A stretch of 38,563 bases of DNA, taken from positions 1 to 38,563 of the forward strand of contig JAQQAM010000293.1 of NCBI GenBank assembly GCA_028532905.1, given 5' to 3'. The notes beneath the pieces are model-generated. The model worked only from the letters and a program-made list of their open reading frames with translations. It had not been told where the DNA came from and ran no database searches. The position numbers and the translations under genes were made by a program. Positions 3,976 to 33,445 of this stretch are shown here, in pieces; positions within the stretch are counted from its first letter, which is position 1, and each line of letters opens with the position of its first letter. Source of the DNA: Spirochaetales bacterium (GTDB lineage Bacteria > Spirochaetota > Spirochaetia > DSM-2461).

Positions 3976-4004
3976 AGTTAATCGTATATGTTTACTATTT
4001 GCAA
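3976..4004 (-). promoter_or_regulatory. weak candidate promoter of the kinase-regulator operon
   Basis: TTGCAA (3999-4004) and TTAACT (3976-3981) are 17 bases apart on the minus strand, and the -10 ends 6 bases before the ATG at 3969. Both boxes are imperfect. It is listed because the gene has no ribosome-binding site and the arrangement recurs elsewhere in the window. Confidence 0.35.
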
Positions 4005-25567: not shown

Positions 25568-28500
25568 TTACATCTTATCCTTAATCCATTCCAGAATGTC
25601 TGTTTCCGGAAGGGGTCTGGAGTAATAATAGCCCTGTATCAGTTCACAGCCATGATCCGCAAGATACTCAATCTGACGGGACGTCTCAGCTCCCTCGGCC
25701 ACAATTTTCTTCTTCAGAGAATGGGCCAGAGAGATCATCGTATCCAGAACAGTCAGATGATTCTCATCCGCCAGGATCTGATCAATAAAGGATTTATCGA
25801 TCTTCATGGTGTCAAAAGGCAGATTCAGCAGGTACTGAAGGGAGGAATAACCGGTACCGAAATCATCAATCGAAATACTGAAACCATACTCCTGCAGCCG
25901 GGAGAGGCTCTCAATGGCATTATAGATTTTGCTGGCGGTAATGCTTTCAGTGACCTCCAGATCCAGAAACCGGGGCTCTATCTGCCTTGATTCCACTGTC
26001 TGAATGAAGTTTTCTATAAAGGAGTGGTTGGAAAACTGCTTGGCAGAGATATTAATTCCCACATGAAAGTCATCATATCCCTGTTCCTGAAGTTTCAGGA
26101 TAAAATCACAGGCTCTTCCCAGAACGAACTCTCCAATATCCATGATAAATCCGTTATCTTCAGAGATGGGAATGAACACATCAGGAGGTATCCATTCACT
26201 GTGATTCCGCTGCCATCTGACAAGGCCCTCAAACCCGGAAATCCGGTTGGTTCGGGGATTGATTTTGGGTTGATAAAACACATCCAGTTCATCCCGGAGA
26301 ATGGACTTCCGCAGATGCATTTCAAGTTCCGAGCGGAATAAAACGGCCTTGTCTTGCTCAGAGTTAAAGTAGCTGTAGGACCCCTTTCGGTTCGCTTTTG
26401 TCCGTTTCAGTGCCGTTTCGGCTTTAACAATCAGATCTTTTTCGCTTGTGCCGTCAAAGGGATAGAGAGAAACACCTATGCTGACAGACAGGTTTACAGA
26501 ATGATCCTTCAGGGCAATGGGCGTTGAAAACAGATCCAGTATCCGTTTAAGAACAATATCCACCTGATTTTTGTCTGTCAGACGGGGAGCCAGAACGGCA
26601 AAATCATCCCCGCCGAAACGGGAGACAAGATCCTCATCCCGGATTCCCGATGTCAGCCGTTCGCTGAACTTCCTTATCAGTTCATCCCCGGAGAGAAAAC
26701 CGTAGCTGTTGTTGATATGCTTCAAGCCGTCCAGATTCAGAATCATGACTGCACAGATTTCACCGCTCCGTTCGGAAGTCTTCAACTCAGACCCCAGAAT
26801 GTCCAGAAACAGGGTTCTGTTGGAAAAACCGGTCAGGGCATCGTATTTGGACATCCAGTTGAGCTCTTCCTCCTGCCTCTTCTTTTCACTGATATCCGTG
26901 AAAATCCCGATGGTTTTCCGATCTTCGGGAGTTTCTCCCATTAAATAGAAAAGATGCAGCCACAAGGAATAAACCTCACCCGACTTACGCCTGCTCAGCA
27001 ATTCTCCGGACCATTCCCCTTTTTCACGAATAGTTTCGGACATTTCCTGTAAAGTTTTCCGGGTAAAGAATTCAGAATAAAAAGTTGAAACATTCTGACC
27101 GACAATCTCTTCTCCGGAATAACCAGAGATTTTCTTATACGACTTGTTTACACGTTCTATCCTGCCATCTGCTCCCATAATAAAAATCGCTTCCAGAGAG
27201 TTCTCAAACATCCTGTCCCAGAGGGACTGGAGATCGGCAAACTCCTGCTCCGCCTTTTTCTTGTCCGATAGATCCCGAATGGCGGCAAAACGGTAGGGTT
27301 TCCCGTTTATATGAATGTTCCGGACCCTTATTTCTACCGGAATATGGATTCCGTCCTTTCGAAGCCCCAGGGCTTCATAGGGGGCTGTGTTTCCAGATGC
27401 TATCCTGTCCTGAACCCGATCCCTGAAGGAAGGAGCAATGATTTTTTCTACAAAATGAGATCCTTCCATTTCCTTGCGGGAAAAACCGAATATTTGTGTA
27501 AACATCCTGTTGGTCTGAACAGTGATTCCCTGGTTATGGATAATGATTCCCTCCCAGGTTGCATCGGAAAACTGCTTTAGTGTCTTCTCTGACTGTTTAC
27601 GCTGCTCCAGAATGATCAGTAGAATGACAGTAGCTGCAGAAAGGAACAGGATGATCAGTATGATCAGCCAGATTTCCAGGGTATAGGACTCATAGAGTGA
27701 AAAGGGACGGTTAATAATCACACTGTCTTCAGGCAGATCCTTCAGGGAGATGCCGAAGCGCTCCAGCTCGGGATAATTGAAAAGATACTGGTTAAACTCT
27801 TCATCCCCTACGGGGATATCTGCAGGAGACTCTCCGTCCAGAATACGCAGTCCGATCCGGGCAATTGTCTCTCCGTGGACAAAGCCGCTTACAACCTTAC
27901 CGCCTATAACCCCCTTCTGAACATTAAAGTCCACCAGTGTATAAAAGGGAACCCGGGAGGCTGATGCAATCTTTTCAGCCATATTCTCATAAGTTGTGAA
28001 AAACCCGTCACGGTCGGCAAAAAACGCCCCGGAGAGAATGAGGGACGTATCCGGAAGAGAGGCGATTTCCTGCTGTAGCTCTTCCAGTGAAAGATTCTCC
28101 GAATGGGTGATTTTTACAGGAAGATCCAGTTTATCCAGCCCGGTTTCAATCTGATTTTTCCAGGCCCGGCCGGTTACCAGATAGTCATTTATTACAAAGA
28201 TTTCTTCCGTACCGGGATGCAGAGACAGCATCAGATTCACCGTTTCCACAGCAGAAGAAACCTCCATAATACCGGTGAAGTCATCATACCCCTCAATCAT
28301 GGACTGATCAAAATCATTGATTCCGCAGAAAACAACGGGAACAGCGGGAAAGAGATCCTCTTGGGTTGCCTTCAGAAATTCCAGGGCATTGTTGTCGGAA
28401 CTGAGGATCAGGGAAAAATCATAACCTGCATATTTGACTCCCAGATAACGGGCAAATTCTTCAGAAAACTTGTCCACACTGAATTCTTTGGAGTCCAAAG

Positions 28501-28702
28501 CCTCATAATGCAGATTAAAGTGTCTGTCTTCTTCATCCAGAACTGACTCAATCCCCCGTAGAATGCTCTCCGGCCAGTTCATCCTGTAGTCATAGGAATT
28601 GAGATAGAGGATATGGGTTACATCTGTGTCATTGTCTGCTGCAACCGGTAAACAAGATACCAGGATCAGTAAGACCATGAGCCCGAGTTGACGGGAAGTC
28701 AT
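25568..28702 (-). CDS. sensor c-di-GMP enzyme: ABC_sub_bind-PAS-PAS-GGDEF-EAL
   Basis: A 1044-residue membrane sensor. A signal segment (1-22) and a periplasmic ABC substrate-binding-like domain (about 29-320, HILYLNSYDYRMNWPESILRG, YTLVDFNVQKGVIGGKVVSG) are followed by a membrane helix (about 344-366) and two PAS domains (about 375-485 and 490-610). The cyclase-like domain (about 617-775) has GGDDF (697-701) instead of GGDEF. The EAL-type domain (about 790-1040) reads EGL at 825-827 but keeps Asn 884, Glu 916, Asp 946 and 947 (DDFGTGYSS), Lys 970 and Glu 1003 (VAEGAE). The phosphodiesterase may therefore be active while the cyclase is doubtful. There is no ribosome-binding site, and the promoter -10 lies 7 bases before ATG 28702. 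Confidence 0.93.
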   Translation of the reverse strand: MTSRQLGLMVLLILVSCLPVAADNDTDVTHILYLNSYDYRMNWPESILRGIESVLDEEDRHFNLHYEALDSKEFSVDKFSEEFARYLGVKYAGYDFSLILSSDNNALEFLKATQEDLFPAVPVVFCGINDFDQSMIEGYDDFTGIMEVSSAVETVNLMLSLHPGTEEIFVINDYLVTGRAWKNQIETGLDKLDLPVKITHSENLSLEELQQEIASLPDTSLILSGAFFADRDGFFTTYENMAEKIASASRVPFYTLVDFNVQKGVIGGKVVSGFVHGETIARIGLRILDGESPADIPVGDEEFNQYLFNYPELERFGISLKDLPEDSVIINRPFSLYESYTLEIWLIILIILFLSAATVILLIILEQRKQSEKTLKQFSDATWEGIIIHNQGITVQTNRMFTQIFGFSRKEMEGSHFVEKIIAPSFRDRVQDRIASGNTAPYEALGLRKDGIHIPVEIRVRNIHINGKPYRFAAIRDLSDKKKAEQEFADLQSLWDRMFENSLEAIFIMGADGRIERVNKSYKKISGYSGEEIVGQNVSTFYSEFFTRKTLQEMSETIREKGEWSGELLSRRKSGEVYSLWLHLFYLMGETPEDRKTIGIFTDISEKKRQEEELNWMSKYDALTGFSNRTLFLDILGSELKTSERSGEICAVMILNLDGLKHINNSYGFLSGDELIRKFSERLTSGIRDEDLVSRFGGDDFAVLAPRLTDKNQVDIVLKRILDLFSTPIALKDHSVNLSVSIGVSLYPFDGTSEKDLIVKAETALKRTKANRKGSYSYFNSEQDKAVLFRSELEMHLRKSILRDELDVFYQPKINPRTNRISGFEGLVRWQRNHSEWIPPDVFIPISEDNGFIMDIGEFVLGRACDFILKLQEQGYDDFHVGINISAKQFSNHSFIENFIQTVESRQIEPRFLDLEVTESITASKIYNAIESLSRLQEYGFSISIDDFGTGYSSLQYLLNLPFDTMKIDKSFIDQILADENHLTVLDTMISLAHSLKKKIVAEGAETSRQIEYLADHGCELIQGYYYSRPLPETDILEWIKDKM

Positions 28703-28709
28703 GTATAAA

Positions 28710-28738
28710 AGTATAAATTAGGATCTTTTAATATACAA
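28710..28738 (-). promoter_or_regulatory. promoter of the EAL gene, abutting the ATG
   Basis: TTGTAT (28733-28738) and TATACT (28710-28715) are 17 bases apart on the minus strand. Seven bases (28703-28709) separate the -10 from ATG 28702, placing the expected transcription start at the A of the start codon. Confidence 0.65.
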
Positions 28739-28798: not shown

Positions 28799-29257
28799 TT
28801 AAGAAGAAGATTTAACAACAAACAGACCTGTGAAAACAGCACAGCAACGGGACTCGCCTCTTCTGAACAATCCGGCCTCAACAGTGATCTTTCCCGTGTT
28901 CTTCTTTTCCAGAGAGTTCCGCAGAGATCCGAGACTCTCCGCCTCAGGAGGCAGGCAGCGGCTGATGAAATCCCCTGTAACCGGAAGCAAATAATCAACC
29001 GACTGACGGGCAACCACAATGGAGGCCTCAGGATCAATCTCTTTCATAAGCTCCCGGACCATGGCCCATCCGCTCAGAATAAGACTGACTGCGATACTGC
29101 CGCCGAACACCGTATTGTGATGGTTGCTGTTTTTTTCAAGAGTTCCGGAAATCTCTACCAGTTCCCGGCTGGAGGTTTCGACCTTGAAACCGGCGCAGCG
29201 GGCCAGAGGAATCTCCCCGGTCATCAGAGTCTGCAGTTCCTGTTCCGATTCACTCAT
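28799..29257 (-). CDS. hotdog-fold thioesterase (YiiD C-terminal type)
   Basis: A 152-residue hotdog-fold protein. The active-site region is KNSNHHNTVFGGSIAVSLILSGW (about 42-64), matching the HNTVFGGSL-type motif of the YiiD C-terminal thioesterase family. VARQSVDYLLPVTGDFIS is the following strand pair. Members hydrolyse acyl-CoA or acyl-ACP thioesters, substrate unknown. ATG 29255-29257 follows a strong GGGGGGGAGAT site. It is divergent from the ABC transporter operon and shares the intergenic region with its palindrome, so the two could be controlled together. No partner enzyme is adjacent. Confidence 0.8.
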   Translation of the reverse strand: MSESEQELQTLMTGEIPLARCAGFKVETSSRELVEISGTLEKNSNHHNTVFGGSIAVSLILSGWAMVRELMKEIDPEASIVVARQSVDYLLPVTGDFISRCLPPEAESLGSLRNSLEKKNTGKITVEAGLFRRGESRCCAVFTGLFVVKSSS

Positions 29258-33416: not shown

Positions 33417-33445
33417 AAGATACAATCCGGAGTCTTTTGATGCAA
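33417..33445 (-). promoter_or_regulatory. weak candidate promoter of the aldose epimerase gene
   Basis: TTGCAT (33440-33445) and TATCTT (33417-33422) are 17 bases apart on the minus strand, and the -10 ends 5 bases before ATG 33411, which has no ribosome-binding site. The boxes are imperfect. Confidence 0.35.

Follow-up and report, generated by a model that had tools for sequence, protein, structure and literature searches.

How is a gene read and translated when its start codon lies only a few bases beyond a promoter-like sequence and no ribosome-binding site can be discerned? The question is raised by a gene for an EAL-domain protein on contig JAQQAM010000293.1 of a Spirochaetales bacterium. 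All 38,563 nt of the contig were analyzed, and this stretch is referred to here as the window. The initial annotation of the window described TTGTAT-17-TATACT ending 7 bases before ATG 28702, with no ribosome-binding site, and suggested that the organism has a class of leaderless genes. Here we examine the junction itself, its counterparts in relatives, and the evidence for such a class.

A -10-like hexamer lies close to the start codon of the EAL gene

Direct reading of the minus strand confirms the described arrangement: TTGTAT, a 17-base spacer, TATACT, TTTATAC and then ATG (Table 1). No substring of AAGGAGGTGA of at least 3 bases is found at the proper distance from this ATG, and hence no Shine-Dalgarno (SD) sequence is evident. 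Taken as sigma-70-type boxes, the -10 matches at 5/6 positions and the spacing is 17, with a -35 of only 3/6; the junction is not among the sites returned by a promoter scanner that demands at least 4/6 per box and at least 9/12 in total. The first T of TATACT lies 13 bases 5' of the A in ATG, in keeping with the distance of ~12 bases by which TA-led genes are recognized (see below).

ATG 28702 appears sound as the start codon. An in-frame stop lies 15 bases upstream with no start codon in between, and the protein opens with what we read as a signal-peptide-like segment.

Table 1. Features of the window relevant to the junctions discussed in the text.
Feature	Position	Strand	Remarks
-35-like hexamer TTGTAT	28733..28738	-	Direct reading; 3/6 versus TTGACA
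-10-like hexamer TATACT	28710..28715	-	Direct reading; 5/6 match; 7 bases 5' of ATG
TTTATAC, between -10-like hexamer and ATG	28703..28709	-	Direct reading
ATG, proposed transcription start (+1 on A or within 1-2 bases)	28700..28702	-	Predicted from -10 geometry
EAL gene, 1044 aa: signal-peptide-like start, ABC_sub_bind, two PAS, GGDEF, EAL	25568..28702	-	
YiiD_C thioesterase gene, 96 bases upstream of EAL gene, same strand	28799..29257	-	Own SD-like GGGGGGAG
TTGCAA-17-TTAACT, 6 bases before ATG 3969 of YesM-like kinase gene	3976..4004	-	Direct reading
TTGCAT-17-TATCTT, 5 bases before ATG 33411 of aldose epimerase gene	33417..33445	-	-10 of 4/6

We consider it very probable that the EAL gene is read from a sigma-70-type promoter in which 7 bases separate TATACT from the ATG, that the resulting mRNA is leaderless with its 5'-AUG recognized directly, and that the gene is one of a minority class of this kind. 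RNA polymerase carrying the housekeeping sigma factor would bind this promoter, and transcription would start on the A of ATG 28702 or 1-2 bases off. The 5'-terminal AUG would then be recognized directly, probably by 70S ribosomes together with initiator tRNA; 70S ribosomes have been described to bind an AUG located at the 5' end (PMC9031893).

A class of SD-less genes with a near -10

The initial annotation held that the same spacing in two unrelated genes was unlikely to be chance. This argument fails by itself, because a -10 at 5-10 bases arises in shuffled EAL upstream sequences with P ~0.12 and a loose form of the junction search also matches before many window ATGs that are not gene starts. 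A window search for an ATG at spacing 5-8 from boxes matching at 8/12 recognized no gene start besides 28702. The two or three sites of the window, none significant singly, were rejected as proof of a class, and the weight of evidence must come from a genome-scale excess and from conservation.

The annotation had also proposed a scan for TATAAT-like hexamers near the ATG of SD-less genes, compared with shuffled sequence. We applied it to ~17% of the genome containing the window (4.98 Mb in 296 contigs), namely 60 stretches plus the window (61 sequences, 856,204 bases), using distances of 5-9 rather than 5-8 bases. A hexamer coding model called 648 genes, with the 5'-most acceptable ATG taken as the start and upstream signals ignored. 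Genes were deemed SD-less when no match of at least 4 bases to AAGGAGGTGA lay at the proper distance, and TATAAT-like hexamers were those with A at position 2, T at position 6 and a match of at least 5/6.

The scan was positive. Such a hexamer lies 5-9 bases before the ATG in 38/245 SD-less ATG genes, whereas 100 dinucleotide shuffles gave 8.7 ± 3.0, with 16 as the highest count. This count comes from the lenient start rule, the one that recovers the EAL start; across four start-choice rules, the count ranges from 31 to 38. A stricter set of 229 SD-less ATG genes has 39 near sites against 8.8 expected from distances 12-49, and the spacing peaks sharply, with 20 sites at exactly 6 bases before the ATG. 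With 6 bases between -10 and ATG, the canonical +1 falls on the A. SD-led genes show nothing of the kind: a near -10 is found in 0/246 genes with an SD of at least 5 bases, where 14.7 are expected, and the looser motif TAnnnT is not in excess among genes with a 4-base SD (14/144 versus 14.5). Among the SD-less genes, TAnnnT occurs in 65/245 versus 22.4. For GTG and TTG starts, 1/11 qualify versus 0.5 expected. We also considered whether in-frame stop codons, which start with TA, could generate the signal, and rejected this idea: 13/39 sites overlap one, and 26 remain without them, versus 7.2.

The excess amounts to ~29 of the 648 called genes for the strict hexamer and ~43 for TAnnnT. Genes with leaderless geometry would thus form a minority, about 4-7% of those sampled, beside ordinary SD-led genes. 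Chance alone would account for about a quarter of these 38 genes (~9). Moreover, 207/245 SD-less ATG genes have no near -10, meaning that absence of an SD does not imply a leaderless mRNA.

A -35 box and gene position provide independent support

The 38 sites were chosen by the -10 alone, yet the columns 17 bases upstream of them resemble TTGACA (T in 27, T in 18 and G in 16 of 38), such that both boxes are visible in the class average. A -35 of at least 4/6 accompanies the -10 at 23/39 near sites, compared to 8/70 distant sites of SD-less genes and 30/111 sites of SD genes.

Gene position was compared in the sample pooled with those of two relatives, one of the same genus (G003) and one of the same family (G008), after dropping genes without a called upstream neighbor (3/77 with leaderless geometry, 30/406 with an SD of at least 5 bases and 22/336 other SD-less genes). 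A same-strand upstream gene within 30 bases is found for only 5/74 near-type genes, versus 138/376 genes with an SD of at least 5 bases (P = 4e-8) and 86/314 other SD-less genes (P = 6e-5). Divergent upstream neighbors are correspondingly common (40/74 near-type versus 98/376 SD-led genes). Near-type genes are therefore rarely tight within operons, as expected for promoters of first genes. Together with the excess over shuffles, the spacing peak and the -35, this bias toward the first gene of a transcript supports the annotated suggestion of a leaderless class in this organism, as far as sequence can indicate.

Related genomes lean the same way

In E. coli K-12 (350 kb), no excess was seen, with 0/83 genes having a near -10 (shuffle mean 1.8) and 4/83 having TAnnnT (versus 8.9). 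Plasmid 2 of Deinococcus deserti (200 kb), a species known to use leaderless mRNAs and thus the positive control, gave 3/53 versus 0.1 for the strict hexamer and 10/53 versus 0.5 for TAnnnT. In the congener G003, 15/113 SD-less ATG genes have a near -10 compared to a shuffle mean of 4.0. For G008 and for genomes of other families, expected values were taken from distances 12-49. G008 has 24/55 versus 4.2; this AT-rich genome (33% GC; L129-L138) has the highest share among those sampled. Numbers are small in the other families: 6/52 in G051 (0.9 expected), 4/34 in G050 (0.9), 6/45 in G032 (0.4), 3/23 in G046 (0.4) and 5/39 in G049 (2.4), the last being weak alone. Pooled, these five give 24/193 versus about 5. 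Among genes with an SD of at least 5 bases, a near site occurs once each in G003, G051 and G049 and not at all in G008, G050, G032 and G046. All seven related genomes thus appear to lean toward the same class, some of them weakly.

FlaA (PF04620), which we take to be a marker of spirochaetes, is encoded in the genome under study and in 7/10 relatives, compared to 0/14 control genomes. The genome is thus apparently that of a spirochaete.

The EAL junction is conserved in relatives

The EAL protein has at least seven N-terminal matches besides itself. Five in relatives were read, as was a paralogue in the same genome; G029:C303 was left out. In all five relatives, a -10 of at least 5/6 lies 6-10 bases before the ATG: TATAAT-6-ATG in G014, TAGAAT-6-ATG in G008, TATACT-6-ATG in G002, TATACT-9-ATG in G005 and TATACT-10-ATG in G001. 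Spacings of 9-10 would be expected to yield a leader of 3-4 bases, rather than none. None of the five has an SD of at least 4 bases, although G002 has a 3-base match. A -35-like hexamer is seen in G014 and G005 as TTGATT (spacing 16) and in G008 as TTGTGT (spacing 17), with no good TTG-type -35 at spacing 16-18 in G001 or G002. An alignment of the six upstream regions with MAFFT was uninformative, the sequences being too diverged to align beyond the junction. The paralogue (L050), whose N-terminal sensor is related, relies on an SD.

That a single gene shares this geometry across five relatives suggests that selection maintains the leaderless state. The relatives differ in their output domains. 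G014 and G008 encode full GGDEF-EAL proteins; in G001, G002 and G005, the same sensor with one PAS has a histidine kinase output. Thus, an ABC-type sensor plus PAS is joined either to GGDEF-EAL (L009, L010) or to a histidine kinase (L011, L012 and L013, with a receiver in 2/3). It is conceivable, albeit unlikely, that certain sensory genes of this spirochaete lineage carry the leaderless junction as a heritable element under selection, one that remained with the same secreted ABC-type sensor as its output changed between c-di-GMP enzyme (GGDEF-EAL) and histidine kinase. Sensor synthesis would in that case need leaderless-competent ribosomes and perhaps a particular growth state.

Alternative explanations

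Could the EAL mRNA have a leader after all? A distant promoter, or read-through from the thioesterase gene, would provide one, translation would proceed independently of an SD from an unstructured AU-rich leader, and TATACT would be incidental or a minor promoter. The neighborhood is compatible with this. The thioesterase gene is so close on the same strand that a longer transcript could also cover the EAL start, the one terminator-like site on that strand in this region is weak, and the EAL upstream region is AT-rich. The many SD-less genes without a near -10 (207/245) point in the same direction. On the other hand, a leader would not account for the retention of the -10 in 5/5 relatives whose upstream regions have otherwise diverged, nor for the class-wide spacing peak and -35, and we regard it as improbable. 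The junction could also be a product of chance, as TATAAT-like hexamers are frequent in AT-rich upstream DNA and TATACT would be one of them. The P of ~0.12 per shuffled upstream, the ~9/38 class members expected by chance and the loose matches at many window ATGs all lend weight to this idea. However, the six shuffle probabilities (EAL plus five relatives) multiply to 3e-7, a figure that assumes independence and a 5-10 range set after viewing the sites, and coincidence consequently seems very improbable.

A further alternative is that the promoter is real and translation starts at a second in-frame ATG, codon 9, which lies 24 bases downstream of ATG 28702 and would leave a leader of ~24 bases. 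Folding of the 60 nt at the 5' AUG (28643-28702, minus strand) predicts a hairpin of -17 kcal/mol (z = -2.3) in which, if the mRNA is leaderless, the first AUG pairs with sequence around the codon-9 AUG. Such a structure could hinder initiation at the first AUG of a leaderless mRNA. Yet no SD is evident before the codon-9 ATG, its use would trim the beginning of the signal-peptide-like segment, and in the five relatives the -10 adjoins the gene's own 5'-most in-frame ATG. Initiation at codon 9 is, in our estimation, the least probable of these alternatives, and a leaderless mRNA starting at or next to ATG 28702 remains the preferred reading. None of the five relatives examined has such a fold at its 5' AUG. 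The predicted pairing between the first AUG and the codon-9 region represents a possible means of controlling initiation in its own right.

Two other candidate junctions in the window

The initial annotation listed weaker versions of the junction at the YesM-like kinase and aldose epimerase genes (Table 1). For the kinase, direct reading shows the described geometry. A search of 25 genomes at E 1e-40 yielded two relatives, and it recurs in both, as TTGCAA-17-TTAACT-6-ATG in G012 and TTGCAA-17-TTTACT-7-ATG in G004. What is missing is the usual A at position 2 of the -10, where all three have T, and hence the promoter may be weak or of another type. The aldose epimerase example did not survive comparison: at the 5/6 level, a near -10 precedes an ATG in none of seven relatives (0/7), and in four of them (G001, G005, G009 and G027) an ATG is preceded by an SD of at least 5 bases. 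Lowering the requirement to 4/6 yields a near hexamer at 5 bases in 2/7 (G001 and G003), accompanied in each case by an SD of 4-5 bases. The site is probably not a promoter of the leaderless class.

Relation to known leaderless genes

Zheng et al. (2011; PMC3160421) predicted TA-led leaderless genes from TANNNT ~12 bases before the start codon and found them to be a minority class; 6/18 Spirochaetes genomes were positive, with a mean of 3.9% (1.8-6.9%). The class described here is alike in having a -10-like signal near the start codon and in its minority status. Our analysis differs in that it follows an individual gene and its relatives and reveals a -35. G008, with 24 of 127 called genes (~4 expected) in a small sample, lies above the range reported there for spirochaetes.

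In another spirochaete, Leptospira interrogans, dRNA-seq identified ~440 mRNAs with a 5' UTR of <10 nt and 170-184 genes whose start site equals the translational start, and no general promoter motif besides sigma-54 was reported (PMC5243855). RNA was mapped in that study, whereas our data consist of sequence; on the other hand, -10 and -35 are visible in the class of the present genome. In Deinococcus-Thermus, ~30% of ORFs have a -10 motif only a few bases upstream that gives rise to leaderless mRNA, and a well-placed -35 enhances the adjacent -10 (PMC12340547). The -10 likewise adjoins the ORF here, although the phylum differs, and promoters were tested with reporters there and computed here. 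In our search of the open-licence literature, Leptospira was the one spirochaete with a mapped leaderless set, and maps elsewhere may exist. We thus infer that the EAL junction is a new instance, with conservation at the level of the gene, of a leaderless class already known in bacteria, spirochaetes included.

One product of this work is a set of candidate leaderless genes from a spirochaete lineage that lends itself to testing. Calling start sites by SD alone could misplace starts with a near -10 or cast doubt on them. Selection for the leaderless state, suggested by the five relatives, could also be tested.

Genes in the class

To assess content, Pfam families of 77 proteins with leaderless geometry (38 from the genome under study, 15 from G003 and 24 from G008) were compared with those of 77 proteins drawn at random from the 406 with an SD of at least 5 bases in the same genomes. 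The comparison covered the top 25 families by frequency in either set; there was no signalling bias, and the class is functionally mixed. HAD hydrolases number 4 in the leaderless-geometry set versus at most 1 in the SD set, as raw counts. Reciprocal best hits between samples gave 158 pairs, scored for a near -10 at 4-10 bases: 2 have it in both members, 9 in one only and 147 in neither (Fisher P = 0.02), numbers too small to carry weight. Orthologues were located for four class members, namely Rex, TrmB, QTMAN and DUF2779.

Several individual cases stand out. The genes for class I lysyl-tRNA synthetase (PF01921) in two species of the genus (L040:4921-6507(-) and L112:7969-9555(-); 89% identical) both have GTATAAT 8 bases before the ATG, and a near -10 is kept in both members of a HAD hydrolase pair (L039/L104). 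Leaderless geometry is also found on both sides of three divergent pairs, encoding a QTMAN glycosyltransferase and a HAD phosphatase (L049:13939(-)/14026(+)), an SDR and Rex (L067:10776(-)/10882(+)), and a histidine kinase and TrmB (L068:10812(-)/10993(+)).
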